DNA of 64,000 nt, taken from assembly GCF_003054195.1 (NCBI RefSeq), contig NZ_QBKP01000004.1, positions 107,350 through 171,349 on the forward strand, given 5' to 3'. The notes beneath the pieces were generated by a model. That model was given only the letters and a program-made list of their open reading frames with translations. It was not told where the DNA came from and ran no database searches. Position numbers and translations under genes: made by a program. The DNA comes from Gemmobacter caeni. Lineage in GTDB: Bacteria > Pseudomonadota > Alphaproteobacteria > Rhodobacterales > Rhodobacteraceae. Shown here piece after piece: positions 27,337-63,669 of the stretch. Within the stretch, counting starts at the first letter, position 1. Every line of letters begins with the position of its first letter.

Positions 27337-27371
27337 CACGATTCGCAGCTGCCTGTTGACTCGTTGTGTAT

Positions 27372-27401
27372 GCGATTGTATCCACTTGGATACAGAATCG
27401 C
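27372..27401. promoter_or_regulatory. Palindromic operator of the GntR-type regulator, with overlapping promoter
   Basis: TGTATCCACTTGGATACA (27377-27394) is a perfect inverted repeat with a 2-base centre, and outer arms GCGATT (27372-27377) and AATCGC (27396-27401) extend it. It lies 15 bp before the gntR start and 35 bp before the divergent AbrB-type gene, so one site could control both. A TTGACT at 27356-27361 with TATCCA 17 bp downstream could be a promoter whose -10 region is inside the operator, suggesting autorepression. Confidence 0.7.
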
Positions 27402-27415
27402 AACCAGAGGATAGC

Positions 27416-28087
27416 ATGACGGAGATCACCGAAGATATCCCGCAGGGTCAGCTGGCCTATCGCCGTCTGCTGGACGAGATCCGGCGCGGGCTGCTGCCGC
27501 CCGGAACGCGCCTGCGCGAGGTTGAACTTGCCGAGCGGCTGGGCCTGTCACGCACCCCGGTGCGCGAGGCCATGCGGCTGCTGGAAGGGGACGGGCTGGT
27601 CAGCCATCTGCCGCGCCTCGGCGCGACTGTGCGCAGCCTCGATTATGCCGAGATCATGGAGCTTTACGAAATGCGCGCGGTGCTGGAAGGCACCGCCGCG
27701 CGGCTCGCGGCGCGCGCCGCATCCGAGGTAGAGCTGGCCGAACTTCAGGCGCTGAACGCCGAATTTGCCGAAGCTTCAGCCGAGGAGGCGCGCGCGGCTG
27801 AACTGAATCGCCAGTTCCACATGATCCTGCAGGATGCCGCGAAGAACCGCTTTCTGATCAAGTCGATCGGTGCCCTGCAAAAGACCATGGCGATTCTTGG
27901 TCCGACGACGCTTATGGAACCCGACCGCGTGCAGGCGGCCGCCACCGAACATGCCCGCGTGCTGGAGGCGATGGCCGCCCGTGACGGGCTGCGCGCCGAG
28001 ACAGAGATGCGCGCCCATATCGAAGCTGCGCAGCGGATGCGCCTGCGGGCGTTGCGGGCGCGTCAACCCAAGCTGGAAGAGGAGTGA
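27416..28087 (+). CDS. GntR-family transcriptional regulator (FCD type)
   Basis: A 223-residue repressor-type protein. The N-terminal winged helix (about 10-75) has LREVELAERLGLSRTPVREA, the GntR recognition helix. The C-terminal FCD domain (about 80-205) has ELYEMRAVLEGTAARLAA and the metal/ligand His residues in ELNRQFHMIL and EHARVLEAM. The ATG at 27416 is chosen over a much longer upstream frame, which is antisense to the AbrB-type gene. tcuA starts 3 bp after the stop, so it probably controls tricarballylate genes in response to a carboxylate. Confidence 0.9.
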   Translation: MTEITEDIPQGQLAYRRLLDEIRRGLLPPGTRLREVELAERLGLSRTPVREAMRLLEGDGLVSHLPRLGATVRSLDYAEIMELYEMRAVLEGTAARLAARAASEVELAELQALNAEFAEASAEEARAAELNRQFHMILQDAAKNRFLIKSIGALQKTMAILGPTTLMEPDRVQAAATEHARVLEAMAARDGLRAETEMRAHIEAAQRMRLRALRARQPKLEEE

Positions 28088-36398: not shown

Positions 36399-37043
36399 AT
36401 GCAGACGCCCCGACCCAGCGATACCGCCGCCGCCCATGAACGGCTTTACCGCAGCCTGCGAACGCAGGTGATGCATGGCGAACTGGCTCCTGGTCAGGCG
36501 CTGACCCTGCGCGGTCTCGGCAAGCAATACGGCGTGTCGATGACACCCGCGCGCGAGGCGGTGCGGCGGCTCGTGGCGGAAGGGGCGTTGACGCTCTCGT
36601 CGTCCGGTCGGGTCGCGACCCCCGAACTCGGACCGGAACGGATCGAGGAACTGGCGGCCATTCGCGCCCTGCTGGAGCCGGAACTGGCCGCCCGCGCCCT
36701 GCCGCGCGCCCATTTCGCACTGATTGACCGGCTGACGGCGATCAACGTCGCCAATGCCGAGGCGGTGGCCCGGCAAGATTCGGTGGCCTACATCCGTACC
36801 AACCTCGAATTTCACCGCACGCTCTATCTGCGGGCACAGGCGCCAGCGATGCTGGCCATGCTGGAAACCGTGTGGCTGCAACTGGGGCCGACGATGCGCG
36901 CGCTATATTCGCGCCTGCGCCGGAACGAACCCCCGCAACATCACCGCATGATCCTTGCCGCCCTGCGCGCGGGCGACGAACCGGCGCTGCGGCTGGCGGT
37001 GCGTACCGATGTGACGCAAGGTCTGCGGCATCTGGCCAGCTGA
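36399..37043 (+). CDS. GntR-family transcriptional regulator (FCD type)
   Basis: A 214-residue regulator. The N-terminal winged helix has ALTLRGLGKQYGVSMTPAREAVRRLVAEGAL, and the FCD ligand domain has ELAAIRALLEPELAARALP and LEFHRTLYLRAQ. The Met at 36399 precedes the conserved helix; the frame is open upstream into the ygjP-like gene's end but without family similarity. It has no obvious target beside it. Confidence 0.9.
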   Translation: MQTPRPSDTAAAHERLYRSLRTQVMHGELAPGQALTLRGLGKQYGVSMTPAREAVRRLVAEGALTLSSSGRVATPELGPERIEELAAIRALLEPELAARALPRAHFALIDRLTAINVANAEAVARQDSVAYIRTNLEFHRTLYLRAQAPAMLAMLETVWLQLGPTMRALYSRLRRNEPPQHHRMILAALRAGDEPALRLAVRTDVTQGLRHLAS

Positions 37044-45908: not shown

Positions 45909-47711
45909 TCAGAACTTGCGCTCCGCCGGGGCGATCTTCTTCAGGCTGATGCCACCTTCCGCCTCGGTCGTCAGTGGATCGACATGCACCGCACGGTAGC
46001 TGAGCGTCACCTGGTTGCCATCGACGTGGGCCAGCGTGTGCTTGCGCCAGTTCGCGTCGTCGCGGTTCGGATAATCCTCGTGGGCATGCGCCCCGCGGCT
46101 TTCCTTGCGGGCATTCGCGCCGTAGATCGTGGCCAGCGCGTTGGGCATCAGGTTGGTCAGTTCCAGCGTTTCCATCAGATCGCTGTTCCACACCAGGCTG
46201 CGGTCGGTGACTTTCAGGTCGTTCAGCTTTGCGGCGATCGAGGTCATCTTGGCCTCGCCCTCGGCCAGCGTCTTTTCGGTGCGGAACACGGCGGCATCGG
46301 CCTGCATCGTCTTCTGCATCTCAAGCCGCAACTCGGCCGTCGGCGTACCGCCATTGGCGTTGCGCAGGCTGTCAAAGCGGGTCAGGGCCTTGTCGACCTC
46401 GACCTTGTTCACCGGGGCGATGCGTTCCCTCGGGTCGACGATCTGTCCGGCGCGGATCGCGGCGGCGCGGCCGAAGACCACGAGGTCGATCAGCGAGTTC
46501 GAGCCCAGACGGTTCGCGCCATGCACCGAAGCACAGCCTGCCTCGCCCACCGCCATCAGACCAGGGAAGATGGCATCCGGGTTGTCGGCGGTCGGGTTGA
46601 GGACTTCGCCCCAGTAGTTCGTCGGGATACCGCCCATGTTGTAGTGAACGGTCGGCAGAACAGGGATCGGTTCCTTGTTCACGTTCACACCGGCGAAGAT
46701 TTTTGCCGATTCCGAGATGCCGGGCAGACGTTCCGCCAAGGTCGCGGGCGGCAGGTGGTTGAGGTGCAGGTGGATATGGTCGCCCTCGGCACCCACACCG
46801 CGGCCTTCACGGATTTCCAGCGTCATGCAGCGCGAGACGTAATCGCGCGGCGCCAGATCCTTGTAGTGCGGCGCATAACGCTCCATGAAGCGTTCGCCCT
46901 TGGAGTTGGTCAGATAACCACCCTCGCCGCGTGCGCCTTCGGTAATCAGGCAGCCCGAACCGTAGATGCCGGTCGGGTGGAACTGCACGAATTCCATGTC
47001 TTGCAGCGGCAGACCGGCGCGGGCCACCATGCCGCCACCGTCGCCGGTGCAGGTATGGGCGGAGGTCGCGCTGAAATAGGCGCGGCCATAGCCGCCGGTC
47101 GCCAGCACGGTCATCTTGGCGTTGAAGACGTGGATCGTGCCGTCATCCAGCTTCCAGCACACCACGCCGGTGCAGCGGCCGTCGGTGATGATCAGGTCCA
47201 GCGCGAAATATTCGATGTAGAATTCCGCGTTGTTCTTCAGGGACTGACCATACAGCGTATGCAGGATGGCGTGGCCGGTGCGGTCGGCGGCGGCGCAGGT
47301 GCGCTGCACGGGCGGGCCTTCGCCAAACTCGGTCGTATGCCCGCCGAAGGGGCGCTGGTAGATCTTGCCCTCTTCGGTGCGGCTGAACGGAACGCCGTAA
47401 TGTTCCAGCTCGTAAACCGCCGCCGGGGCTTCGCGCGCGAGGTATTCCATCGCGTCGGTGTCGCCCAGCCAGTCCGACCCCTTCACGGTGTCATACATGT
47501 GCCACTGCCAGTTATCGGGGCCCATGTTGGCAAGGCTGGCGGCGATGCCGCCCTGTGCCGCGACGGTGTGGCTGCGGGTCGGGAACACCTTGGTCACGCA
47601 GGCGGTGCGCAGGCCCTGTTCGGCCATCCCCAGCGTGGCGCGCAGACCGGCGCCACCGGCACCGACCACCACGACATCATAGTCGTGAACTTCGTAAGGA
47701 TAAGCAGTCAT
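45909..47711 (-). CDS. sdhA: Succinate dehydrogenase flavoprotein subunit
   Basis: A 600-residue catalytic subunit oxidising succinate to fumarate. The FAD site [16 protein letters not shown] and the covalent-FAD His48 in [14 protein letters not shown] are present, as are the active-site region [17 protein letters not shown] and [10 protein letters not shown]. The end [13 protein letters not shown] is standard. Met at 47711 replaces a longer open frame, because the alphaproteobacterial family starts with TAYPYE. Confidence 0.97.
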
Positions 47712-47721
47712 CTTCAGCCTC

Positions 47722-48093
47722 TCAGAGCGCGATCTTGGCCAGGGCATAGAAGCCCACCGCGATCACCGCGTAGGAAATCGAAATCGCCAGCATGATCAGG
47801 CCCTTCTTCATGCTGCCGCGCGCATAGTCCTCGATCATCATCTGCGCGCCCTTGGCGAAGTGGCGCATACCGACGAATAGCACGAGGCCGGTCAGGATGG
47901 CCGGGAACGGATGCGAGAAGGTTTCAAGCACCTCTTCATAGGGTTTGCCCAGCGTCGAGCCGAAAATATACATCCAGACCGGGATCATGAAGGCCAGGCC
48001 CACGGCCGAGACCTGCATGTACCAGTGATGCTCGGTGCCGGTATGGGCGGCGCCCTTGCCCTCGGCGCGCTTGCGGGCGGTCAGGTAACGCAT
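47722..48093 (-). CDS. sdhD: Succinate dehydrogenase membrane anchor subunit
   Basis: A 123-residue anchor with three helices. [23 protein letters not shown] starts helix 1. [30 protein letters not shown] has the haem-ligand-type His and the quinone-region Asp/Tyr motif of SdhD. It lies 10 bp after sdhC and 10 bp before sdhA. Confidence 0.93.
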
Positions 48094-48103
48094 GGCTGCC
48101 TCC

Positions 48104-48487
48104 TCAGACCAGAATGACGGTGATGACGGTCAGGACGACCGAGCCGATGATGCAGGCCCAGCCCAGCTTTTCGGCGGTCGGGATGTCGAGCCCCTTGCCC
48201 GCATCGTAGTAAAGGTGCCGCAGCCCGGCGAGGTAGTGATACCAGAGCGCCCAGGCCGACAGGAAGAACACCAGATCGCCGAACCACGAGGTCACCACCG
48301 CATCGGCGAAGGCGAAATATTCGGGGCTGACGGCGGCGGCGAGCAGCCACCAGACCGCCAGCAGCGTGCCGACGATCAGCCCGTTGCCGGTGATCCGCGT
48401 CAGGATCGAGGTGATCGAGGTCAGCTGCGGACGGTAGATTTGCAGATGGGGGGAAAGGGGGCGCTCGACCCGCTTTGCTTCGGCCAT
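48104..48487 (-). CDS. sdhC: Succinate dehydrogenase cytochrome b556 subunit
   Basis: A 127-residue haem-binding anchor. RPLSPHLQIYRPQLTSITSILTRITG is the family signature (the Ser and Arg contact quinone), and HYLAGLRHLYYDAGKG carries the haem-ligand His. It has three helices and is the first gene of the sdh operon; its control region has the GTGATCAC pair about 150 bp upstream. Confidence 0.96.
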   Translation of the reverse strand: MAEAKRVERPLSPHLQIYRPQLTSITSILTRITGNGLIVGTLLAVWWLLAAAVSPEYFAFADAVVTSWFGDLVFFLSAWALWYHYLAGLRHLYYDAGKGLDIPTAEKLGWACIIGSVVLTVITVILV

Positions 48488-48637
48488 GGTATTGTCCCTC
48501 TGTCGCTTGGCGCGGCCCGAGCGTCGCGCACTGGCAGGATTTCCTGTTGTTCAATAGCGCGTTTTTCGCGCAAGTCACGCGGGCAATCGGCTGTTTAGGG
48601 GGCCGTTTCCGCTATCAACCCCGAATATTTGCAATTT

Positions 48638-48666
48638 GTGATCACGTTTTTTTCAGCTGTGATCAC
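48638..48666. promoter_or_regulatory. Paired GTGATCAC operator upstream of sdhC
   Basis: The 8-base palindrome GTGATCAC occurs at 48638-48645 and 48659-48666, 21 bp apart (two helical turns), with a 13-base spacer containing seven consecutive T. The layout matches the pair before sucC. The bound protein is unknown; the Rhodobacter TCA regulators AkgR and CceR are candidates to test. Confidence 0.75.
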
Positions 48667-48718
48667 GCAATCGCGCGGGGTGTGGCGACTCGACCGCACC
48701 TCTGATCCCGATGGAGGA

Positions 48719-48774
48719 GGGGGCGCTGCCCCCGCGCCCTGCGGCGCCTCCCGGGATATTTTGGCCAGTATGAA
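48719..48774 (+). repeat. Composite intergenic element (hairpin plus ATTT box), copy A
   Basis: A GGGGGC-GCT-GCCCCC hairpin (48719-48733) is followed by a GC-rich stretch and the box GATATTTTGGCCAGTATGAA (48755-48774), ending 8 bp before the mch stop. Comparable boxes are at 13673, 13866 and 41677. Confidence 0.6.
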
Positions 48775-48782
48775 CGCGCGGC

Positions 48783-49814
48783 TTATTTGGGCATCACGGC
48801 CCAGTAATCGAGGTCCAGAAGAACCTCCGGTGCGTATTTGCCGTCCGCGCCCTTCAGCGCGAAGGGTGCGGCGCCCTGTTTCACTGCGACCAGCCGCAGC
48901 CGGATGGCGCCGACACCCGGCGCATCGGTATCGGCTTTGTCCAGGACCTCGGACCAGGCCTTGACGGTATCGCCCGAGAAGCAGGGGTTGGCGTGCGCCC
49001 CGCCGTTCAGCGCGACGATCATCTGGGCATTGGCGAGGCCGTTGAACGACAGGGCGCGGGCCATGCTGATGATATGGCCACCGTAGATCAGCCGCTTGCC
49101 ATCATCACGGAATGTCGCGTCAAAATGCACCTTGGCGGTGTTCTGCCACAGGCGGGTGGCAATCATGTGTTCGGCTTCCTCGATCGTCACGCCATCCACA
49201 TGGTCGATCTGTTCACCAACCTGATAGTCGCCCCAGCGATGCGGCTCGCCCGCCAGCGCGAAATCGTAACGGGTGAAATCAAGGCCCGCCGGGATCACCA
49301 GATCGGACGGCGCGAGCGCCTTCTTCAGCTCCGGCACCACGGCTTCGGGCGCGGGGGCGTCGAGATGGTTCTTCCGCACCATCACCCAGCGCACATATTC
49401 CAGCACGCAATCGCCGTTCTGGTTCAGTCCGCGGGTGCGGACATAGACCACGCCCGACTTGCCATTGGAGTTTTCCTTCAGCCCGATGACGGTGGATTCC
49501 GACCGCAGCGTATCGCCGGGGTAAACCGGGGCGAGCCAGCGGCCTTCTGCATAGCCGAGGTTCGCCACCGCGTTCAGGCTGATATCGGGCACGGTCTTGC
49601 CGAAGACCACATGGAAGGCGGCCAGATCGTCAATCGGACTGGCGCTGAGGCCGCTGGCGCGGGCAAATTCATCCGAGGAATACAGCGCATGCCGGGCAGG
49701 GTAGAGCGCATGATACAGCGCGCGTTCCCCGCCCGAAACCGTGCGGGGCACGGCATGGGTGATGGTTTCGCCGATGCGGTAATCCTCGAAGAACCGGCCG
49801 GGATTGGTTTTCAT
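48783..49814 (-). CDS. mch: Mesaconyl-CoA hydratase (beta-methylmalyl-CoA dehydratase)
   Basis: A 343-residue tandem MaoC/hotdog enzyme interconverting mesaconyl-C1-CoA and beta-methylmalyl-CoA in the ethylmalonyl-CoA pathway, which lets cells assimilate acetyl-CoA without isocitrate lyase. MKTNPGRFFEDYRIGET, ERALYHALYPARHALYSSDE and LANLGYAEGRW-like segments match the Rhodobacter enzyme as I know it. Two hydratase-like halves are visible (about 10-155 and 185-340). It is last in a minus-strand group with DUF1737, NnrU-like and mcl2. Confidence 0.93.
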   Translation of the reverse strand: MKTNPGRFFEDYRIGETITHAVPRTVSGGERALYHALYPARHALYSSDEFARASGLSASPIDDLAAFHVVFGKTVPDISLNAVANLGYAEGRWLAPVYPGDTLRSESTVIGLKENSNGKSGVVYVRTRGLNQNGDCVLEYVRWVMVRKNHLDAPAPEAVVPELKKALAPSDLVIPAGLDFTRYDFALAGEPHRWGDYQVGEQIDHVDGVTIEEAEHMIATRLWQNTAKVHFDATFRDDGKRLIYGGHIISMARALSFNGLANAQMIVALNGGAHANPCFSGDTVKAWSEVLDKADTDAPGVGAIRLRLVAVKQGAAPFALKGADGKYAPEVLLDLDYWAVMPK

Positions 49815-49853
49815 GCGCTGTGCTCTCCTGCTGCGGCGGGGTGTCCCGCCGGG

Positions 49854-50057
49854 TCAATGCTCGCCGAGCTTGGTTTCGGGGGTGTAGATGCCGGGGGCTT
49901 CCTTCACCACAGCCTGACCGCAGCGCATCACGCCGCGGGCGGCGTCGAAGGCATAGGTGGGGGCGCCGTGCAGTTCCCACCCCTTGTTGAGGGCGGCGGT
50001 CACCTTGTGGCAGAAGGCCGATGTGTCGTCATCGCTGAGAAAACGATAGAGTTTCAT
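49854..50057 (-). CDS. DUF1737 small protein
   Basis: A 67-residue protein starting MKLYRFLSDDDTSAFCHKVTAALNKGWELHG, the DUF1737 pattern, with a C-terminal VVKEAPGIYTP. Function unknown. It lies 4 bp after the NnrU-like gene and 39 bp before mch, so it shares their transcript. The start at 50057 is fixed by the conserved N-terminus. Confidence 0.85.
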   Translation of the reverse strand: MKLYRFLSDDDTSAFCHKVTAALNKGWELHGAPTYAFDAARGVMRCGQAVVKEAPGIYTPETKLGEH

Positions 50058-50061
50058 GGGG

Positions 50062-50604
50062 TCACCCGAATGCAGGATAGCCGAGCGCATAGTGGACGCC
50101 CGCGATGGCACCATAGACGATCAGCGTGCCGGCGACAGCCATGGCCTCGAACTTCGCGGGTTTGGCGGGGGGCGGAACCCAGGGGCCGGCGCGGTTGATG
50201 ACCACCATTTCCACCAGCGCCCAGAGGCCGAGGCCGCCGAACAGCAGGAAGGACGGCGTGTCACCATTGACCAGCAAATGCGCGGTGGACCACAGCAGCA
50301 CACCCGTCAGCATCGGGTGCCGCAGGCGGCGGGCGATGGCCGTTTTCATCCCGGCGGCGGCGAACAGATAGACCGAAATCAGCATCAGGAGATTGTTGAT
50401 GCCGACAAGCGCCGGGCTGCGACCCCAGTAGAAGGTGCCTTCGGTGCTGCGATAGCCAATCACCATGAGCACCACCCCGGCGAGGATGGCCAGCGTAACA
50501 ATACCGCGCCCGCGATCCCCCAGCCCCGCTCGGGCATCAGGGGCAAGGCGCTTGAACAAATGGGCGGCGATCCAGAGGATCAGGCCGAGGGCGAGCAGGG
50601 TCAT
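50062..50604 (-). CDS. NnrU-family membrane protein
   Basis: A 180-residue protein with five to six helices. LLALGLILWIAAHLFKRLAP and RRLRHPMLTGVLLWSTAHLLVNGD are the NnrU family signature (His residues suited to haem or substrate binding). Family members were first seen near denitrification genes, but here the context is carbon metabolism. Relatives such as PEMT/isoprenylcysteine methyltransferase-like folds are distant. The gene is 39 bp after mcl2 in the same direction. Confidence 0.85.
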   Translation of the reverse strand: MTLLALGLILWIAAHLFKRLAPDARAGLGDRGRGIVTLAILAGVVLMVIGYRSTEGTFYWGRSPALVGINNLLMLISVYLFAAAGMKTAIARRLRHPMLTGVLLWSTAHLLVNGDTPSFLLFGGLGLWALVEMVVINRAGPWVPPPAKPAKFEAMAVAGTLIVYGAIAGVHYALGYPAFG

Positions 50605-50643
50605 GGCTGGCTCCGTTGAATGTGAACTGGGTTCACACTCGCA

Positions 50644-51507
50644 TCACTCTGCCATGGCCGCAATCGCATCGGCCTTGGCGAGCGTGGCCCGCGCCGTCAC
50701 GATATGGAGATTTTCAACGATCTTCCCATCGACCACGGCGACGCCGCCGCCCTGGGCCATCACCTCGTCAAAGGCGGCGATCTGACGGCGGGCGAGGGTC
50801 AGCTCGGCCTCGGACGGTGCAAAGGCGGCGTTGGCGATGTCAAGCTGCGCCGGATGGATCAGCGTTTTGCCGTCAAAGCCCATATCGCGACCCTGTTCGC
50901 ATTCAAAGCGCAGCCCGTCCTCATCCTTGAAGGCGTTGTAAACGCCGTCGATCAGCGTCACGCCATGGGCGCGACCCGCCAGCAGGCAGAGGCCCAGCCC
51001 TGTCTGCATCGGCAGGCGATCAGGGCGGAAGCGGCTGTTCAGCTCTTTGGCAAGGTCATTGGTGCCCATGACCATGCCTTTGAGACGCGGATGGGCCGCA
51101 ATCTCGGCGGCGTTCAGCATCCCGGCGCAGGTTTCCATCATCGCCCAGAGATCGGCGCCCGGCACGGCATCGGCCACGGCATCCAGATCAGCGGCCCGGT
51201 TCACCTTGGGCACCAGAATGGCGTCAATCCTGGCCCCGCGTGCGATGGCCTCGTCCATCGCGTCGGCATCGGCGCGGCCCCATTCGGTATCAAAGCCGTT
51301 GATCCGCACGATCCGCATACGGCGACCGAAATCCCAGTCGGTCAGCACCTGCGCCAGCAGTTTGCGGGCGGCGGGCTTTTCCTCGGGCGCAACGGCATCT
51401 TCCAGATCGAAGATGATCCCATCGGTGGCAAGGCCGCGCGCCTTTTCCAGCGCACGTTCTTTCGAGCCGGGGATGTAAAGGACAGAGCGGCAGGGGCGGG
51501 CGGTCAT
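50644..51507 (-). CDS. mcl2: (3S)-malyl-CoA thioesterase
   Basis: A 287-residue CitE/HpcH-superfamily enzyme. RSVLYIPGSKERALEKARGL, DGIIFDLEDAV, GMVMGTNDLAKELNSRFRPDR and GMLNAAEIAAHPR are clear, and the close similarity to Rhodobacter Mcl2 and position beside mch argue for the thioesterase that hydrolyses malyl-CoA to malate, rather than the lyase Mcl1. Start at 51507 precedes the conserved barrel start; the longer frame to 51639 has no similarity. Confidence 0.88.
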   Translation of the reverse strand: MTARPCRSVLYIPGSKERALEKARGLATDGIIFDLEDAVAPEEKPAARKLLAQVLTDWDFGRRMRIVRINGFDTEWGRADADAMDEAIARGARIDAILVPKVNRAADLDAVADAVPGADLWAMMETCAGMLNAAEIAAHPRLKGMVMGTNDLAKELNSRFRPDRLPMQTGLGLCLLAGRAHGVTLIDGVYNAFKDEDGLRFECEQGRDMGFDGKTLIHPAQLDIANAAFAPSEAELTLARRQIAAFDEVMAQGGGVAVVDGKIVENLHIVTARATLAKADAIAAMAE

Positions 51508-51574
51508 GGGCGAGTCTCCCGTGAAAGATTCTTTCGCCAAAGACCACATCTGCGGCACATTCGGCAAGCCCCGA

Positions 51575-51592
51575 TTTGCCGCATTGCAGAAA
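51575..51592. promoter_or_regulatory. Possible TTTGC-type operator upstream of mcl2
   Basis: TTTGCCGCATTGCAGAAA is an imperfect palindrome about 70 bp before mcl2. Regulators of short-chain acyl-CoA genes in related bacteria (PccR/RamB type) bind TTTGC-rich sites. The match is weak. Confidence 0.25.
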
Positions 51593-51619
51593 TTCTTGCT
51601 GCGGGGCCGCGCGTGGCGG

Positions 51620-52387
51620 TCAGCCCAGCGGAAAGGCACCCCAGACCAGTTTCAGCGACAGCAGCAGCAAGGCCCAGGTCACCAGTTTGAAAAACAGTGC
51701 TTCCGGCAGCCTGCGCACCAGCCAGACCCCGCCGAACACCGCGGCGGAGGCCGGGATCGCCATCAACAGCGTAACCTTCAGGTTGCCGAGGCTGATCTGA
51801 CCCAGCGCCCAATAGGGGATCAGCTTGATCGCATTCACATAGGCGAAAAGGATGGTCGATGTGCCCGCGAACACCGCTTTCGACAGGCCCAGCGGCATGA
51901 CATAGACCTGATAGGGCGGGGCACCTGCATGGCTGACGAAGCTGGTAAAGCCGGTAGCGGCGCCCCAGAACAGGCCCGGCGCCACTTTCGCGGGTTGCGG
52001 CTCGGTCACGCGCGGGCGGCGCAACAGCAGGTTGGCGGCAAAGACCGCGCCGACCAGACCAACGATGCCGCCGACAATCCGTTCGGGCACCAGATGCGCG
52101 GTGGCCCATCCCAGCGCGACACCCAAAGTGGTGGCAGGCACCATGATGGCCAGCACCCGTTTGTCAGAGGCATGGCGATAGGCATAGAGCCCGAACATAT
52201 CCGAGACGATATAAATGGGCAGCAGCAGCCCCGCCGCCATGACCGGCGACATCACCAGACTCATCAGCGGCACTGAGAGCATGGCCACCACCGGCACACC
52301 GCCCTTCCCCATGCCCATCAGAACCGCGGCCGGAATTGCGGCTGCCCAGAACGCCAGATCTTCCACTTGCCCTGCCTCCGTCGCCAT
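51620..52387 (-). CDS. TSUP-family permease (TauE/SafE type)
   Basis: A 255-residue membrane protein with about eight helices. AAVLMGMGKGGVPVVAMLSVPLMSL and FTSFVSHAGAPPYQVYVMPL are the two repeats of the TauE/SafE signature. Relatives export sulfite, sulfoacetate or other organosulfur or carboxylate anions. It is upstream of mcl2 on the same strand with 112 bp between, so cotranscription is uncertain. Confidence 0.87.
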   Translation of the reverse strand: MATEAGQVEDLAFWAAAIPAAVLMGMGKGGVPVVAMLSVPLMSLVMSPVMAAGLLLPIYIVSDMFGLYAYRHASDKRVLAIMVPATTLGVALGWATAHLVPERIVGGIVGLVGAVFAANLLLRRPRVTEPQPAKVAPGLFWGAATGFTSFVSHAGAPPYQVYVMPLGLSKAVFAGTSTILFAYVNAIKLIPYWALGQISLGNLKVTLLMAIPASAAVFGGVWLVRRLPEALFFKLVTWALLLLSLKLVWGAFPLG

Positions 52388-52527
52388 TTGGGCGACCCTG
52401 TTCCGGCCGACTCGCGCCGGTTGCCACGCAACTTTCCGCAGCCTTTAGCGCAAACAACTTGCGCAGGGCAACTTGGCCTGTCATGCCGCATCGCGGCAGT
52501 CTTGCGTGAATCCCGCGAGACGCCTAA

Positions 52528-53529
<1,002 letters not shown>

Positions 53530-53550
53530 TCCGGCCCCGCTTACGAATTG

Positions 53551-53579
53551 CAAAAGCCCGGCCATGTGCCGGGCTTTTG
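53551..53579. terminator. Bidirectional rho-independent terminator after mdh
   Basis: CAAAAGCCCGGC pairs perfectly with GCCGGGCTTTTG over 12 bp around loop CATGT. T-runs lie on both strands within the arms. It separates mdh from the convergent PAP2 gene. Confidence 0.92.
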
Positions 53580-53600
53580 TCATGGTGCTTCGGCCTCGTC

Positions 53601-54140
53601 TCAGAACTCCATGTGATAGCCGATGGCGACATTGTCGCCGGAAAGATCCATGGTGACGCCATGGGCAAGGTAACCCACCAGCGCCCCGGCCAGAACCTGA
53701 CCCACGGTATGCTGGTCGGCTTTGACGCGCGAAACCCCGACAAGCGTTGCCGCGCCGAAAGCCAGCGCGCCTGCAACCGGGCTGTCGCGCCAGCAATCCC
53801 GCGCAAGGCTGGTCGCGCCGTAGAATGCCATGGAGGTGTGCCCCGACGGAAAGCCCCGGTCATGCCCGTTGGGGCGGCGACCGATCCGGCTGTCGCGGGT
53901 GGCTGCCTTCAGGCCCTGCGTCACCAGCTCTGTCGTGGCAAGGCCGGCCACGAAATTCGCTGTCCGCTGCTGCCGGATCGCGCAGACCCCGGCCATCGCG
54001 GGCAGAATGACCTGAAGCGCATCGCCCGTGCGTTCCAGTCCGGTCTTGTCCTGGGCCATGACAGGCGTGGAAAGGCCAAGACAGGCGGCAAGGGTCAGGG
54101 CGCACGCGGGCAGGCGGTGCCAAAGGTGGATCGGGGGCAT
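53601..54140 (-). CDS. PAP2-family phosphatase, secreted
   Basis: A 179-residue protein with an N-terminal signal (ACALTLAACLGLSTPVMAQ, cleavage after VMA). The acid-phosphatase motifs are KAATRDSRIGRRPNG, GFPSGHTSMAF and SRVKADQHTVGQVLAG (with the catalytic His residues). It would hydrolyse lipid or other phosphates in the periplasm. It is short for the family and largely soluble apart from two weak helices. It is divergent from the methyltransferase gene. Confidence 0.88.
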   Translation of the reverse strand: MPPIHLWHRLPACALTLAACLGLSTPVMAQDKTGLERTGDALQVILPAMAGVCAIRQQRTANFVAGLATTELVTQGLKAATRDSRIGRRPNGHDRGFPSGHTSMAFYGATSLARDCWRDSPVAGALAFGAATLVGVSRVKADQHTVGQVLAGALVGYLAHGVTMDLSGDNVAIGYHMEF

Positions 54141-54286
54141 GGCAGTGTCCTTGGGGGCTGCGGAGATCGCGCCAGCCTTCGGTCGCTGGCCTCGTCGCCG
54201 CCATGCAACCGGAGTTGCAGACCATCATCAGGACTAGGCGCCATGCCCTCTTCCGCGCGTCGCGACACCGTGCTAGCGCCGGGGGT

Positions 54287-54979
54287 ATGAGCAAGGGCCA
54301 CATCTCTCCCTATCACGCGCCTGCCTTCATTCCCGACGCGCTGGCGAAGGGGCAGCATCGTGCCATCATCGGGGGGCGATGGGAGGAAACCGGCATCATC
54401 CAGATGGAGATGCTGCTGGCCGAAGGGCTGCGCCCGCGCCACCGCATGCTGGACATCGGCTGCGGCCCCCTGCGCACCGGCTGTCGCGTCGTGCCCTATC
54501 TGAACCCCGGCCATTACTGGGGCAGCGACCTGTCGCGCGACCTGATCCTCAAGGGCTACCGCGCGGAACTGACCGAGGGCGACCGCGCCCGTCTGCCCGC
54601 CCTGCAGTTGGTAGAGGACGCGGATTTCAGCTTTCCCGGCATTCCGCGCGATCTGGATTATCTGCTGTGTTTCGCAGTGTTCACCCACCTGCCGGTGAAT
54701 CACCTGCGCCGGGGTCTCCTTCGGGTGGCCGACCACTTCACCCGGTTCGAGAAATTCCTGTTCACGGTGTTCCTTGCCCCCGATGCGCAATCGAGCCTCG
54801 GCCCGGTGCGGCAGCCCGATGGCGTGGTCACCCACGACATCCGCCCGCCCTATCATCTGCTGGAATCCGACATCCACTATTTCTGCGCGCAGGCCGGATT
54901 GCAGGTGAGTATCCGCGCAAACCGGCTGCCGAGGGGGCAGGTTCTCTGCGTGGCGAGTCGCAGCACCGCGAATCGTTGA
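54287..54979 (+). CDS. SAM-dependent methyltransferase (class I)
   Basis: A 230-residue protein. MLDIGCGPLRTGCRVVPYL (about 62-80) is the SAM-binding GxGxG-type motif I, and YWGSDLSRDLI the acidic motif after it. DLDYLLCFAVFTHLP is motif IV. The substrate cannot be read. Met at 54287 is preferred; the frame is open to 54203 without similarity. Confidence 0.82.
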   Translation: MSKGHISPYHAPAFIPDALAKGQHRAIIGGRWEETGIIQMEMLLAEGLRPRHRMLDIGCGPLRTGCRVVPYLNPGHYWGSDLSRDLILKGYRAELTEGDRARLPALQLVEDADFSFPGIPRDLDYLLCFAVFTHLPVNHLRRGLLRVADHFTRFEKFLFTVFLAPDAQSSLGPVRQPDGVVTHDIRPPYHLLESDIHYFCAQAGLQVSIRANRLPRGQVLCVASRSTANR

Positions 54980-55037
54980 CAGGTTGTGCTGGTCGACCCG
55001 AAATTTGCTCTCATATTTTCAATGGGAGTTATGGGGA

Positions 55038-56221
55038 ATGGCCGATATTGCGGGGAATACAGGGACGAAGGCGAGGCTCTTGCCTGAAAAAGCGTAACCG
55101 GCATCTTGGAGCGATCAGATGTTTCGGATTGGTTTCGGGTCAGCCTGAAAGCTGGGATGTCCTACCAGATCAATGCGACGGGAACCGGCGGGGCAAACAG
55201 CGTCGAGGAACTTCAGCTTCTGGTTCTGGACAAGACCGGTGGTATCATCGACAGCGACGGTGGCGGTTGGTATGATCGTCGGACTGTCGTGGTGGGCGGC
55301 GGTACGGGCGCCGAGGTCTTTGCCGAGGTCACGTCACGCGGGGCGACTGGCGAGTATATCCTCAGCTGGGTTTCCAGCGACAATGTCCGAAATGATGTTG
55401 AAACAACGAAAACTGCAAGGATCGGTGGTGTCACGGCAGGCGTCATCGACTGCTATCTCGACTCTGACTGGTACAAGGTCAACGCCAGGGCTGGCGTAAC
55501 CTATACTTTCCGCGTCGAGGGGGATGGAACAGCAAAGGGCCTCCCCCAACTGGAACTGACGATCCGAAGTGAACGGGGTATCGTGCTGGATGAGGCATGG
55601 GGCGGCAGAGATTACAGGGAAATCAGCTGGACGGCTGAGAAAGACGGCAAGGTGTTTCTGGATATTACCGGGCACAATCCTTATGGTATTACGTCCGATA
55701 CCGGAAAGTTCGTGCTTCTGGTGACCTCTGACCAGCGACTGCTTTCCGGCACTCGCAAGAGTGACGATCTGACGGGTGGCGAGACGGCAACCTTCATGAC
55801 CGGAAAGCAGGGCAACGATACGCTGCATGGCGGCGGCGGGAACGACACGCTGTTCGGGGGGCAAGGCAACGATCTGCTGGAAGGCGGGGTGGATTCTGAT
55901 CGGCTTTCCGGGGATGCCGGTCAGGATACTCTTCTTGGCGGTGCCGGTGCTGACCGGCTGAGTGGTGGCAAGGGGAATGACAGGCTGACCGGCGGCGCGG
56001 ATAAGGATGTCTTCCTGTTCTTCAAGGGAGGTGGCACCGACAGGATCACCGATTTCGAGGACGGGATTGATCGGATCACCTTCGGGGGCTCCATAACCTT
56101 TTCCGATCTGGTGATCCGCCAGCGTGGGGCCAATGTCTCGATCAGCGCCGATAAGGTGGAGGTTCTGGTCGAAAACATGCTTGCTTCAGACCTGATGCGG
56201 GCAGATTTTGCCTTCATCTGA
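55038..56221 (+). CDS. Secreted RTX calcium-binding protein with two PPC-like domains, split by a -1 frameshift
   Basis: The ATG at 55038 (GGGAG and GGGGA upstream) opens a peptide MADIAGNTGTKARLLPEK that stops at 55095-55097. The rest reads in another frame from TTG at 55106 or before. With one more A in the run at 55087-55091, the two join as PEKSVTGILERSDVSDWFRV. The joined unit mirrors the second PPC-like unit (VETTKTARIGG and VIDCYLDSDWYKV), so the split is within a real domain. After the second domain come four or five GGxGNDxL nonapeptides (about 55800-55990), a calcium roll, and a DFEDGIDRITF C-terminal cap. Such proteins leave by type I secretion. Codon use and GC are lower than in neighbours. 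Confidence 0.8.
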
Positions 56222-56317
56222 CGGGAAGCCTGGCCCGGCAGGGCGCGTTTTCCCGGCCGGGAGACGCGCTCCGAGTCGGGTTTTCTCTCGCTGCGCTGCG
56301 GCGTTTGCGGCAACGGC

Positions 56318-56364
56318 ATCGCCTTTGTGATCACACTTTTTCGGCGTGTGATCACAAAGGCGAT
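56318..56364. promoter_or_regulatory. Paired GTGATCAC operator upstream of sucC (19-bp inverted repeat)
   Basis: ATCGCCTTTGTGATCACAC (56318-56336) is repeated perfectly inverted at 56346-56364 around TTTTTCGGC. Inside it, GTGATCAC occurs at 56327-56334 and 56348-56355, again 21 bp apart. The site is about 100 bp before sucC. The large repeat could also form a hairpin in RNA, so a terminator for the RTX gene is an alternative reading, although the shared sdh layout favours an operator. Confidence 0.75.
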
Positions 56365-56463
56365 TTTTATGCGTCAAATCCCGCCGATCACGCAAATGCC
56401 GTTTTGAAAGCGCCTTCCATTATGGCATCACGCCCCCAAATCAGCAGCGATGGGACATGATCC

Positions 56464-57657
56464 ATGAACATCCATGAATATCAGGCCAAGGCGCTTCTCC
56501 GCAGCTATGGCGCCCCGGTTTCGGACGGCCGTGTCGTCCTGAAAGCCGAGGAAGCCAAGACCGCGGCGGGCGAACTGGACGGGCCGCTCTGGGTCGTCAA
56601 GGCGCAGATCCACGCCGGTGGCCGCGGCAAGGGCAAGTTCAAGGAACCGGAAGCCGGTGAAAAGGGCGGTGTCCGTCTGGCGAAATCGGTGGAAGAAGCC
56701 GAAACGCTGGCCAAGCAGATGCTGGGCCGCACGCTGGTCACCCATCAGACCGGCCCGGCCGGTAAACAGGTGAACCGCATCTACATCGAGGCCGGTTCCG
56801 ACATCTCGCGCGAACTCTACCTCGCGCTGCTGGTGGATCGCCAGACCAGCCGCATCTCCTTCGTCTGCTCGACCGAAGGCGGCATGGATATCGAAGAGGT
56901 CGCCGCCTCGACCCCTGAGAAGATCCTGTCCTTCTCGGTCGACCCGGCTTCGGGCCTGTCGGATTTCCACGGCCGCCGTCTGGCCTTCTCGCTGGGCCTC
57001 GAAGGGGCGCAGGTGAAGCAGATGGTCGCGCTGGCCAAGACGCTCTACAAGGCCTTCGTCGAGAAGGACATGGAGATGCTGGAGATCAACCCGCTGATCG
57101 TGACCCCGGAAGGTCAGATCAAGGTGCTGGACGCCAAGGTGTCGTTCGACGGCAACGCGCTTTATCGCCACGCCGACATTCAGGCGCTGAAGGACGAGAC
57201 CGAGGAAGACCCCAAGGAACTCGCCGCTTCGAAATTCGACCTGAACTACATCGCGCTGGACGGTGAGATCGGCTGCATGGTGAACGGCGCGGGCCTTGCC
57301 ATGGCGACCATGGACATCATCAAGCTCTATGGCGCGGAACCCGCCAACTTCCTCGACGTGGGCGGCGGTGCGACCAAAGAGAAGGTGACCGAGGCCTTCA
57401 AGATCATCACCTCGGACCCGAACGTCAAAGGCATTCTGGTCAACATCTTCGGCGGCATCATGCGCTGCGACGTCATCGCCGAGGGCGTCATTGCTGCGGT
57501 GAAGGAAGTGGGCCTGAAGGTTCCGCTGGTCGTGCGTCTGGAAGGCACCAACGTCGAGCTGGGCAAGAAGATCATCAACGAAAGCGGGCTGAACGTGATC
57601 GCGGGTGACAACCTCAGCGACGCGGCGCAGAAGATCGTGAAAGCGGTGAAGGGCTGA
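56464..57657 (+). CDS. sucC: Succinyl-CoA synthetase beta subunit (ADP-forming)
   Basis: A 397-residue ATP-grasp subunit. [38 protein letters not shown] (nucleotide-binding Lys and Gly-rich loop) and the C-terminal [18 protein letters not shown] are invariant. It converts succinyl-CoA to succinate with ATP formation, together with SucD. It is first in the suc operon; a small gene follows after 7 bp. Confidence 0.98.
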
Positions 57658-58147: not shown

Positions 58148-59032
58148 ATGGCCGTACTCGTCAACGAAAATACCAAGGTTATCTGCCAGGGCATCACCGG
58201 CTCGCAGGGCACCTTCCACACCGAACAGGCGATTGCCTATGGGACCAAGATGGTCGGTGGCGTGACGCCCGGCAAGGGCGGCACCAGCCACCTTGACCTG
58301 CCGGTCTTCAACTCGGTTCACGAAGCGAAAGCCGTGACCGAGGCCAATGCCACTGTGATCTACGTTCCGCCGCCCTTCGCGGCGGACTCGATCCTTGAAG
58401 CGATCGATGCTCAGATGGAGCTGATCGTCTGCATCACCGAGGGCATTCCGGTGCTCGACATGATGAAGGTGAAGCGGGCGCTGGAAGGGTCCAAATCGCG
58501 ATTGATCGGGCCGAACTGCCCTGGCGTCATCACCCCCGGCGCCTGCAAGATCGGCATCATGCCGGGCCACATCCATCAGCGCGGCAGCGTCGGCGTGGTG
58601 TCGCGTTCGGGCACGCTGACCTATGAGGCGGTGAAGCAGACCTCCGACCTTGGTCTGGGTCAGTCCTCGGCCGTGGGCATTGGCGGCGATCCGATCAAGG
58701 GCACCGAGCACATCGACGTGCTGGAAATGTTCCTCGCGGACCCGGAAACCCATTCGATCATCATGATCGGTGAAATCGGTGGCTCGGCCGAAGAAGAAGC
58801 CGCGCAATTCCTCGCCGATGAAAAGAAGCGTGGCCGCTGGAAGCCGACCGCCGGTTTCATCGCGGGCCGCACCGCGCCGAAAGGCCGTCGCATGGGTCAT
58901 GCCGGTGCCATCGTGGCCGGTGGCAAGGGCGATGCGGAATCCAAGATCGAGGCGATGAAATCCGCCGGGATCGTGGTTGCCGACAGCCCCGCCCATCTGG
59001 GCGAAGCCGTGATGAAGGCGCTGGGCAAGTAA
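58148..59032 (+). CDS. sucD: Succinyl-CoA synthetase alpha subunit
   Basis: A 294-residue subunit. [19 protein letters not shown] binds Co[21 protein letters not shown] is the family signature, and [13 protein letters not shown] holds the phospho-His (about 252). An AGGAGG-type site precedes the start. It pairs with sucC despite the intervening gene. Confidence 0.98.
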
Positions 59033-59474: not shown

Positions 59475-62438
59475 ATGACCGATCAATCCCCCAACGCCAC
59501 GCTGAACGCGCAATCCTTCATGGACGGCGCCAATGCCGATTACATCGACCAGCTTCAGGCCCGCTATGCCGCCGACCCGAATTCGGTCGATGCCGGCTGG
59601 GCCGCTTTCTTCAAGGCGCTGGGTGACAGCGAGCTGGAAGCCAAGCGCGCCGCTGCGGGCCCGTCCTGGGCGCGCAATGACTGGCCGCAGCAACCGGCGG
59701 ACGAACTGACTGCCGCGCTGACCGGCGAATGGCCGCTGGTGCCGAAAGAGGCCAAGGGCGCGGGCAAGAAAATCGCCGAAAAGGCGGCCGAGGCCAATGT
59801 GGCCCTGACACAGGAGCAGATTCAGCGCGCCGTGCTGGATTCGATCCGCGCCATCATGATCATCCGCGCCTACCGGATTCGCGGCCACCTGGCTGCCGAT
59901 ATCGACCCGCTGGGCATGCGCGACAGTTCCAACCACCCGGAACTGGACCCGAAATCCTATGGCTTCACCGAAGCCGACATGGATCGCCCGATCTTCATCG
60001 ACAATGTGCTGGGCCTGACCCATGCCTCGATGCGGCAGATCATGGAGATCGTGAAGCGCACCTATTGCGGCACGTTCGCGCTGCAATACATGCACATTTC
60101 CGACCCTGAACAGGCCGCCTGGCTCAAGGAACGGATCGAAGGCTACGGCAAGGAAATCGCCTTCACCCGCGAAGGCCGCCGCGCCATCCTGAACAAGCTG
60201 GTCGAAGCCGAGGGCTTTGAGAAGTTCCTGCATGTCAAATACATGGGGACCAAGCGTTTCGGTCTGGATGGCGGCGAGGCGCTGATCCCCGCGATGGAAC
60301 AGATCATCAAGCGGGGCGGTAATCTGGGGCTGAAGGAAATCGTCATCGGCATGCCGCACCGCGGTCGCCTGTCGGTTCTGGCCAATGTTCTGGGCAAACC
60401 CTACCGCGCCATCTTCAACGAATTCCAGGGCGGCAGCTTCAAGCCCGAGGATGTGGATGGCTCGGGCGACGTGAAATATCACCTCGGCGCCTCGTCGGAC
60501 CGCACGTTCGACGGCAATACCGTCCACCTGTCGCTGACCGCGAACCCCTCGCACCTTGAGGCGGTGAACCCGGTCGTTCTGGGCAAGGTCCGTGCCAAGC
60601 AGGACCAGCTTGGCGATACGGAACGCCGTCAGGTTCTGCCGATCCTGCTGCATGGCGATGCGGCTTTCGCGGGTCAGGGCGTCGTGGCCGAATGCTTCCA
60701 GCTTTCGGGCATCAAGGGCCATCGCACCGGCGGCTGCATCCATATCGTCGTGAACAACCAGATCGGCTTCACCACCGCACCGCATTTCTCGCGCACCTCG
60801 CCTTATCCGACGGATATCGCGCTGATGGTCGAGGCGCCGATCTTCCATGTGAACGGCGACGATCCCGAAGCCGTGGTGCACGCCGCCCGCGTGGCGACCG
60901 AGTTCCGGCAGAAGTTCGGCAAGGATGTCGTTCTGGACATCTTCTGCTACCGCCGCTTTGGTCACAACGAGGGCGACGAGCCCATGTTCACCAACCCGAT
61001 CATGTATAACCGCATCAAGCGTCACAAGACGACGCTTCAGCTTTATACCGACCGGCTGGTGAAGGATGGCCTGATCCCGGAAGGCGAGATCGAGGACATG
61101 AAAGCCGCTTTCCAGGCCCGCCTTAACGAAGAGTTCGAGGCTGGCAAGGAATTCAAGCCGAACAAGGCCGACTGGCTGGATGGCCGCTGGAAGAACATGT
61201 CGCGCGAAGGCGAGGAATATATCGCCGGCAATACCGCGATCAAACCCGAGACTCTGGCCGAGGTAGGCACCGCGCTGACCCGTGTGCCGGACGGGTTCGA
61301 GATCCACAAGACCGTCGCGCGCCAGCTGGAAGCCAAGAAGAAGATGTTCGAGACCGGCGCCGGTTTCGACTGGGCAACGGCCGAGGCACTGGCCTTCGGC
61401 TCGCTGCAAACCGAGGGCTATCCCGTGCGTCTGTCCGGTCAGGACTGCACGCGCGGCACCTTCTCGCAGCGGCATTCGGCCTTCATCGAGCAGGGTACCG
61501 AAGAGCGTTACTATCCGCTGAACCACATCCGGGCCGGTCAGGCGCGGTATGAGGTCATCGACTCGATGCTGTCGGAATATGCGGTGCTGGGCTTCGAATA
61601 CGGTTATTCGCTGTCCGAGCCGAATGCGCTTGTGCTGTGGGAAGCCCAGTTCGGCGATTTCGCCAATGGCGCGCAGATTATGTTCGACCAGTTCATCAAC
61701 TCGGGCGAAAGCAAGTGGCTGCGGATGTCCGGTCTGGTCATGCTGCTGCCGCACGGGTTCGAAGGGCAGGGGCCTGAACATTCGTCGGCACGCCCCGAGC
61801 GCTTCCTGCAACTTTCGGCGCAGGAAAACTGGATCGTGGCGAACTGCTCGACCCCGGCGAACTACTTCCACATCCTGCGGCGTCAGATCCATCGCGATTT
61901 CCGCAAGCCGCTGGTGCTGATGACGCCGAAGTCGCTGCTGCGGCATCCGATGTGTGTCTCGACCGTCGAGGATTTCACCACCGGCTCGTATTTCCATCGC
62001 GTGCTGTGGGATGACGCCCAGAAGGGCAATTCGTCGCAGCAACTGAAGCCCGATGCCGAGATCCGGCGCGTGGTGATGTGCTCGGGCAAGGTCTACTATG
62101 ACCTGCTGGCCGAACGGGATGCCCGAGGCGCCGATGATGTCTACCTGCTGCGGGTGGAACAGCTTTACCCCTTCCCGGCGCAATCGCTGCGCGCCGAACT
62201 GGGGCGCTTCCCGCAGGCCGAGGTGGTCTGGTGTCAGGAAGAACCGAAGAACCAGGGTTACTGGAGCTTCATCGAGCCGAATATCGAATGGGTGCTGGAT
62301 CAGGTCGGTGGCGCTGCGAAACGCGCGCGCTATGCCGGCCGCACGGCCTCGGCTTCGCCCGCCACCGGCCTCGCCTCCAAACACAAAGTTGAACAGGAAG
62401 CGCTCGTGAATGATGCGCTGTCTTTCGAAGGGAAATAA
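59475..62438 (+). CDS. sucA: 2-oxoglutarate dehydrogenase E1 component
   Basis: A 987-residue thiamine-diphosphate enzyme that decarboxylates 2-oxoglutarate. The N-terminal [19 protein letters not shown] helix binds E2. [18 protein letters not shown] and [15 protein letters not shown] form the cofactor site, and [10 protein letters not shown] and [18 protein letters not shown] bind metal. [20 protein letters not shown] is the C-terminal domain signature. Standard length. sucB begins 4 bp after its stop. Confidence 0.98.
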
Positions 62439-62442
62439 GCCA

Positions 62443-63669
62443 ATGACCGTTGAAGTTCGCGTTCCCGCCCTTGGCGAAAGCGTCACCGAAGCGACCATCG
62501 CGACCTGGTTCAAGAAGCCGGGCGATGCCGTTGCCGTCGATGAAATCCTCTGCGAGCTGGAAACCGACAAGGTGAGCCTCGACGTGCCCTCGCCCGCCGC
62601 GGGCGTGCTGGGCGAGATCGTCGCACAAGAAGGTGAAACCGTCGCTGCGGCCGCGCTGCTGGCGACGATCAACGAAGGCGCCACCGCTGCCGCAGCCCCC
62701 AAGGCCGAGGCGAAAGCCGAAGCCGCCGCTGCGGTGAACTCGCCCGGTGCAGGGCCGGAAACTCCGGCTGCCCGCAAGGACGTGGAAGATGCGCCTTCGG
62801 CCAAGAAAGCCATGGCCGAGGCGGGGATTTCCGCCGCGCAGGTGCAGGGCTCGGGCCGTGACGGCCGTGTGATGAAGGAAGACGTGGCCAAGGCCGTCGC
62901 TTCTGCCGCTGCTGCCCCGGCGCCCGCCCCGGTTTCGGTGCCGCGCGCGCCGGTCCCGGCCGATGATGCCGCCCGCGAAGAGCGCGTCAAGATGACCAAG
63001 CTGCGCCAGACCATCGCGCGCCGCCTGAAGGACAGCCAGAATACTGCCGCCATGCTGACCACCTATAACGAGGTGGACATGTCCGGCATCATGGGCCTGC
63101 GCAACGAATACAAGGACGTGTTCGAGAAGAAGCACGGCGTGAAGCTCGGCTTCATGTCCTTCTTCGTGAAAGCCTGCTGCCACGCGCTGAAGGAAGTGCC
63201 CGAAGTCAATGCCGAGATCGACGGCACCGACATCGTCTACAAGAACTACGTCCACATGGGTGTGGCGGTGGGCACGCCCTCGGGTCTTGTGGTGCCGGTG
63301 GTGCGCGACGCCGATCAGATGGGCTTTGCGGCGATCGAGAAGAAGATCGCCGAACTGGGCGTCCGCGCCCGCGACGGCAAGCTGTCGATGGCCGAAATGG
63401 CGGGCGGCAGCTTCACCATCTCGAATGGCGGCGTCTATGGCTCGCTGATGTCCTCGCCGATCCTGAACCCGCCGCAGTCGGGGATCCTTGGCATGCACAA
63501 GATCCAGGACCGCCCGGTGGTGGTGAACGGCCAGATCGTCATCCGCCCGATGATGTATCTCGCGCTGAGCTACGATCACCGCATCGTGGACGGCAAGGGC
63601 GCCGTGACCTTCCTCGTCCGCGTGAAGGAAGCGCTGGAAGACCCGCGCCGCCTGTTGATGGATCTGTAA
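62443..63669 (+). CDS. sucB: Dihydrolipoamide succinyltransferase (E2)
   Basis: A 408-residue E2 of the 2-oxoglutarate dehydrogenase complex. One lipoyl domain (1-75) carries the modified Lys in [12 protein letters not shown]. After an Ala/Pro linker comes a peripheral-subunit-binding segment (about 108-145, [20 protein letters not shown]). The catalytic domain ends with [16 protein letters not shown] (catalytic His and Asp). Met at 62443 starts the lipoyl fold; the longer open frame from 62410 is the end of sucA read in another frame. A terminator follows at 63684. Confidence 0.98.

Follow-up and report, generated by a model that had tools for sequence, protein, structure and literature searches.

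In the 64,000-nucleotide stretch of Gemmobacter caeni DNA analysed here (contig NZ_QBKP01000004.1, positions 107,350 to 171,349; referred to below, at its full length, as the window), two operons of the citric acid cycle are each preceded by a pair of identical 8-mers, GTGATCAC. The four copies are found at 48638, 48659, 56327 and 56348 and form two exact pairs, each with a 21-bp step and a 13-base spacer (N13), just as a preliminary description of this DNA had claimed. The first paired operator, GTGATCAC-N13-GTGATCAC, lies at 48638..48666 upstream of sdhC and is oriented along the minus strand, which is that of sdhC; the second lies at 56327..56355 on the plus strand, upstream of sucC. Around the sucC operator there is, again as previously described, a perfect 19-bp inverted repeat with a 9-bp centre (56318..56364, no strand assigned; arms 56318-56336 and 56346-56364), the outer arms of which are variable in relatives. 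The first gene after the sdh operator is sdhC (48104..48487; TIGR02970), followed by sdhD (47722..48093; TIGR02968) and sdhA (45909..47747; TIGR01816), all on the minus strand. On the plus strand, sucC (56464..57657; NF001913) is the first gene after the second operator and is followed by sucD (58148..59032; NF004230), an open reading frame (ORF) taken as sucA, encoding 2-oxoglutarate dehydrogenase E1, by its place and length only (59475..62438), and a gene for a sucB-type E2 acyltransferase (62410..63669; PF00198, PF00364 and PF02817). Approximately 12 kb from sdhC, the same window carries the gene of a candidate AkgR-type regulator of 214 amino acids (36399..37043, plus strand, start codon chosen by eye), with a GntR helix-turn-helix domain (PF00392, 52.0 bits) and an FCD domain (PF07729, 67.3 bits).

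A chance origin of these pairs was rejected on the basis of window shuffles, the genome-wide count and conservation across genera. Shuffled versions of the window contained a mean of 0.20 pairs when up to 3 mismatches were allowed, and both real pairs have 0 mismatches. When the whole G. caeni genome (5,135,347 bases) was searched with up to 2 mismatches, the only two exact N13 pairs were those at sdhC and sucC, so that the exact pair reveals no other target in this genome; three further N13 pairs carry 1, 2 and 2 mismatches. The motif is absent from the kilobase around the start of mdh (52001-53000; mdh at 52537-53529, plus strand), in agreement with the preliminary description. A fifth copy of GTGATCAC in the window, at 25536, is single and resides inside an ORF (25365-26321), and it was discarded as an operator. 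Elsewhere in the genome TGTGATCACA occurs at two further single sites, one within a 647-amino-acid reading frame (L029) and the other between listed ORFs (L028).

The paired operator is widely conserved among relatives. In a set of 149 genomes, one per genus, from a family that is Rhodobacteraceae judging by contig titles, at least one GTGATCAC-N3..33-GTGATCAC pair was present in 133 genera, and a reversed control pattern was found in none of the 149. The preliminary description had allowed that the pair might prove not to be conserved in relatives, or to be equally common at random places, and neither is the case. A scan of named genomes yielded at least 120 loci; most of the 80 titles listed point to Rhodobacteraceae. 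Among the loci listed there are 127 exact N13 pairs, and 101 of them precede either sdhC (43 pairs, 113-204 bp from the start of the gene) or sucC (58 pairs, 95-149 bp from the start). The remaining 26 pairs among the matches listed are unassigned, with one of them (L122) lying upstream of a truncated sucC. Ten of these 80 titles belong to organisms outside Alphaproteobacteria, and none of their pairs is upstream of sdhC or sucC. In the matches listed, the conserved core consists of the two 8-mers with TTT before the pair and AAA after it, the inner edges are mostly A/G and T/C, and the outer GCC/GGC arms vary. The middle is A/T-rich, which bears out part of the earlier description of the spacer as T-rich; however, either A or T may occupy these positions, and T-richness as such is only partly general.

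Conservation at sdhC was then quantified in 142 upstream regions, representing 142 of the 143 family genomes with an SdhC match; second SdhC matches in three genomes (G028, G047 and G087) and a 25-residue fragment in another (G098) were left out. Taking the best pair per genome, with ties resolved in favour of the gap nearest 13, a pair with no more than 2 mismatches was present in 119 of the 142 genomes and was free of mismatches in 109. The spacer in these 119 promoters is 13 bases in 106, 12 in 12 and 11 in 1. The 23 genomes without a pair at sdhC comprise 12 that are regulator-less and 11 that are regulator-bearing. Across 385 genomes of the class (taken as Alphaproteobacteria), an N3-33 pair was found in 29, of which 5 belong to the family; the 24 pair-bearing genomes outside the family have the N13 spacing in 2 cases and other spacings in the rest, and in this search the reversed control pattern also scored in two genomes.

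Several variants of the arrangement were observed in these genomes. In G135 three GTGATCAC copies, each 21 bp from the next, stand upstream of sucC (L307, 1501-1550), and at another locus (L310) an additional copy follows a 13-bp step. In G042 a third N13 pair is found upstream of fumC, another citric-acid-cycle gene (L299, 1501-1529). Outside the family, paired GTGATCAC sites lie beside GntR/FCD genes at L241 (992-1020, N13) and L263 (1501-1532, N16), whose products share 29% and 37% identity with the window protein. A sucC pair (L125, 291-319) also occurs on a contig labelled Robiginitomaculum, the SucC of which is 94% identical to that of the window; the bin label may be wrong. In the window itself, an ORF with RTX calcium-binding repeats (55106-56221, plus strand) lies between mdh and sucC, immediately upstream of the sucC operator.

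The distribution of the GntR/FCD protein encoded at 36399-37043 follows that of the operator. A match at E<=1e-50 was found in 133 of the 149 genera, and both protein and pair are present in 130 genera, neither in 13, the pair only in 3 and the protein only in 3 (Fisher P = 2e-13, uncorrected for kinship). Among the protein-only genomes, G040 has pairs with 1 mismatch at both sdhC and sucC, and G122 and G147, with completeness of 76% and 73%, both lack an SdhC match; SucC has no match in G122 and a match of only 51% identity in G147. In blastp searches of five small genomes, the window protein was the best own FCD hit of one GntR gene in four (47-72% identity), two of which carry just 2 and 3 GntR genes, and the fifth genome has a 74% match to it. 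Of the 30 genomes with the highest-scoring matches, 15 have the regulator and sdhC on one contig, always within 25 kb of each other (counted by eye), and in the other 15 they are on separate contigs or there is no SdhC match. Within the window, no GTGATCAC copy was found close to the gene of this protein, and the motif therefore gives no sign of autoregulation. A second GntR/FCD ORF in the window (26858-28087, plus strand) is 409 amino acids long with a GntR domain only from residue 200, and its true start is thus probably internal.

Published work on Rhodobacter sphaeroides points to the same protein type. In the portion of PMC6365646 available to us, GTGATCAC is named as occurring among the sites bound by the R. 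sphaeroides activator AkgR, and a Pseudomonas GntR-like protein that is 32% identical to AkgR goes with the same GTGATCAC motif. In the corresponding portion of PMC4344238, RSP_0981 (GntR) is predicted to regulate the genes for succinyl-CoA synthetase, succinate dehydrogenase and 2-oxoglutarate dehydrogenase, and the locus numbers RSP_0974-6 and RSP_0981 suggest that the regulator lies near sdh in R. sphaeroides. The window likewise encodes a GntR-family protein, contains sites with the GTGATCAC core and has these sites before the predicted target operons. That the window protein is an orthologue of AkgR/RSP_0981 gains indirect support from its presence in 133 of the 149 genera and from its similar closeness to sdh. 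The regulator of the paired sites is very probably an AkgR-type protein. The suggestion in the preliminary description that a single regulator controls sdh and suc gains support from the conservation of the operator at both operons, from the co-occurrence with the GntR/FCD protein, and from the parts of the two papers cited above.

The position of the promoter relative to the operator was examined in sdhC promoters. Of 163 gathered, 4 near-copies or duplicates were removed (including the window copy, which recurred as L312), leaving 159. A -35 box was called as [GAT]TGAC[AT] at +25 to +100 after the operator, a rule that is position-neutral inside this range; where several hits occurred, as in 9 promoters, the better -10 box decided. 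Of the 142 promoters with a called box, 115 have the -35 start at 58-62 bp after the operator, and the other 27 have it at 37 (1), 47-52 (12), 69-72 (9) or 79-81 bp (5). No start falls at 53-57, 63-68 or 73-78 bp, and the same is true of unselected motif hits. The 27 off-mode promoters have a mean cosine of phase to the mode of 0.80 at 10.8 bp, which was equalled by 0 of 20,000 uniform draws; the 16 of them that were fetched after the motif had been chosen reach 0.76 alone, again equalled by 0 of 20,000 draws (P<=5e-5). The uniform null is a crude one, and common descent may still contribute to these scores; when off-mode promoters were grouped by identity, shuffled sequences reached similar identity. 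Within this crude null, natural variants of the predicted boxes keep the whole-turn distances typical of class I activation. In the window, the predicted sdhC -35 box (GTGACT, 48573..48578, minus strand) starts at +60 and so belongs to the modal class, and the predicted -10 box (TATTGA, 48551..48556, minus strand) lies 16 bp beyond it. At sucC, a -35-like TTGAAA (56404..56409, plus strand) starts at +49 with no clear -10 box, and the commonest best-scoring -35 starts among sucC promoters are at 47-49 bp, one turn nearer than at sdhC (24 of 59).

The DNA between operator and promoter is itself periodic. A/T peaks occur at about +12, +22, +32 and +43, with a period of 10.4 bp at sdhC (159 promoters) and 9.9 bp at sucC (58 promoters); P is 0.0005 for each of the two, both by position permutation and by per-sequence rotation. 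The 119 sdhC promoters that were fetched later show the same A/T power on their own (0.14). In the window, A/T blocks in helical phase extend over 48594..48637 on the sdhC side (minus strand; about +8 to +14, +20 to +25, +30 to +32 and +41 to +44) and over 56363..56397 on the sucC side (plus strand; about +8 to +15, +21 to +24 and +39 to +42).

Together, the whole-turn promoter distances and the phased A/T blocks fit an activator that works from one face of the helix. Based on these findings, we think it highly likely that AkgR-type dimers bound to the paired sites activate the sdh and sucCD-sucAB operons together, in a class I-like manner. Each GTGATCAC with its T/A flanks would form one putative site for a dimer of the GntR/FCD protein, and before both sdhC and sucC two dimers, separated by 21 bp, would sit on the same DNA face and jointly switch on the sdh operon and what would be a single sucCD-sucAB operon. 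They would act from upstream at a distance of whole helical turns, the predicted -35 box starting about 49, 60, 70 or 81 bp after the operator, and the A/T blocks at approximately 10-bp steps may either bend the DNA back to the dimers or serve as docking places for the alpha C-terminal domain of RNA polymerase. The proposal of two dimers on one face was already made in the preliminary description; the sdhC spacings of 13, 12 and 11, the 21-bp steps of L307 and the phasing of the promoters argue for it indirectly, whereas the 13-bp step of L310 does not accord with it. We also lean, if slightly, towards a more specific view in which operator, A/T blocks and promoter make up one composite device, in which a pair of GntR dimers on one face, together with a pre-bent linker, holds RNA polymerase in a small loop. 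Were this so, activation could survive an evolutionary displacement of the promoter by one or two full turns, and the genera would amount to a natural helical-phasing experiment on one promoter.

A number of observations weigh against joint activation by an AkgR-type protein. Among the 128 regulator-bearing genomes with an sdhC region, 11 lack a pair at sdhC, and three genomes have the operator with no close regulator match (G019, G096 and G114, the last rated 100% complete), for which either an assembly gap or a substitute protein may be responsible. In a 24-genome SucC tree, in which 12 of 21 inner branches are weakly supported, the operator-less genomes require 3 changes, and the regulator-less genomes cluster on this tree, so that few independent events underlie the co-occurrence. 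The promoter boxes are consensus calls, with none made in 17 of the 159 sdhC promoters, and the -35 motif was picked after 43 of these promoters had been viewed. When TTGACA/TATAAT was accepted at any position, this looser rule gave calls in 129 of the 159 and was noisier, placing some boxes out of phase (5, 10, 16, 23, 41 and 92); its 28 off-mode calls gave a phase score of 0.68 at 10.7 bp. The sucC boxes are weak, with 35 of 59 best calls scattered outside 47-49. On the far side of the operator there is a weak A/T periodicity, with a power of 0.022-0.023 versus 0.14, six times smaller; its P value is 0.13 by permutation (101 promoters), and it is the value of 0.003 by rotation (99 promoters) that tells against our interpretation. 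Finally, the argument equates AkgR with RSP_0981.

Of the other explanations, the most serious is that the quantised distances and the A/T blocks are due to another DNA-bending protein or to UP-type elements, and not to contact with the dimers. The blocks, at about +12, +22, +32 and +43, do run right up to the promoter, and the operator-less sdhC promoters, with a usable promoter call in just 3 of 12, are too few to serve as a periodicity control; however, the first block (+10 to +13) is fixed to the operator in both operons, and the commonest promoter positions of the two operons are about one turn apart. We regard this explanation as a real possibility, if an unlikely one. It is much less probable that the pair serves repression, with the same GntR protein or a paralogue bound there and blocking the promoters. 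Many GntR/FCD proteins are repressors, and the G. caeni genome has 20 FCD-family matches. However, the distance from the end of the operator to the -35 box is 37-81 bp in all 142 called sdhC promoters; such an upstream location is usual for activators rather than repressors, and it counts for activation here. AkgR is, moreover, termed an activator in the available part of PMC6365646. Very improbable, in turn, is the reading of the sucC repeat, with its perfect 19-bp arms, 9-base loop and following T run (ATTTTTA), as a terminator or RNA hairpin of the upstream gene. Among the matches listed the outer arms vary and it is the 8-mers, their spacing and the TTT/AAA flanks that are kept, the sdhC pair has no such arms, and a search of 48000-57000 for RNA elements in Rfam gave nothing at gathering score. 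RSP_1663, a LacI-family protein, is presumably CceR. To the view that CceR or some other global regulator, rather than the GntR protein, occupies the pair we give hardly any credence: in R. sphaeroides, sdh and mdh are predicted targets of RSP_1663, but its predicted motif is different, [AGT]GTT-N6-8-AAC[ACT] (PMC4344238, in part), the start region of mdh has no pair, and GTGATCAC is attributed to AkgR (PMC6365646, in part). Of the two regulators named in the preliminary description, AkgR fits the motif and CceR, by eye, does not.

Joint activation by an AkgR-type protein would link one citric-acid-cycle switch of Rhodobacteraceae to a defined DNA device. Our analysis also names the likely regulator gene in G. 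caeni and identifies sampled genomes that are missing both operator and regulator. To our knowledge, activation by GntR-family proteins has been little studied compared with repression by them, and the natural series of promoter distances lends itself directly to testing how such an activator reaches RNA polymerase. The motif, the regulator type and the targets are already in print, as the available portions of PMC6365646 and PMC4344238 make clear; no description of the double-site geometry was found in the literature searched, which excluded the primary AkgR paper.

Among known systems, the central-carbon regulator CceR (LacI family) has overlapping pathways in common with the one described here and differs from it in protein family and motif (PMC4344238, in part). 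By eye, the element conserved in our genomes is not the CceR motif but GTGATCAC-N13-GTGATCAC. For the window GntR/FCD protein, the best NCBIfam match is PRK11414, a GntR family regulator, at 86 bits versus a cut-off of 225, and the closest solved structure by sequence is that of McbR (GntR/FCD, PDB 4p9f, E 3e-21), which is a different regulator. We take the organism of this structure to be Escherichia coli. Class I activators such as CRP of E. coli activate from upstream sites at whole helical turns; CRP belongs to an unrelated family, and the window system has two sites together with phased A/T blocks and a contact with polymerase that we infer. Another known system is PS417_07240, the GntR-like regulator of the deoxyribonate cluster of Pseudomonas simiae, which has a conserved GTGATCAC upstream of its cluster; there, however, one 8-mer is described, the protein is 32% identical to AkgR and the pathway is another (PMC6365646, in part). 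Also close is the AkgR (GntR family) regulon of R. sphaeroides, which shares the GTGATCAC motif (PMC6365646, in part), the sdh, sucCD and 2-oxoglutarate dehydrogenase genes predicted as targets of RSP_0981 (PMC4344238, in part) and a GntR/FCD gene near sdh. What distinguishes the present case is a different genome, together with the fixed double site, the helical quantisation of the promoter distances and the A/T blocks in phase with it, all of which are described here from sequence.

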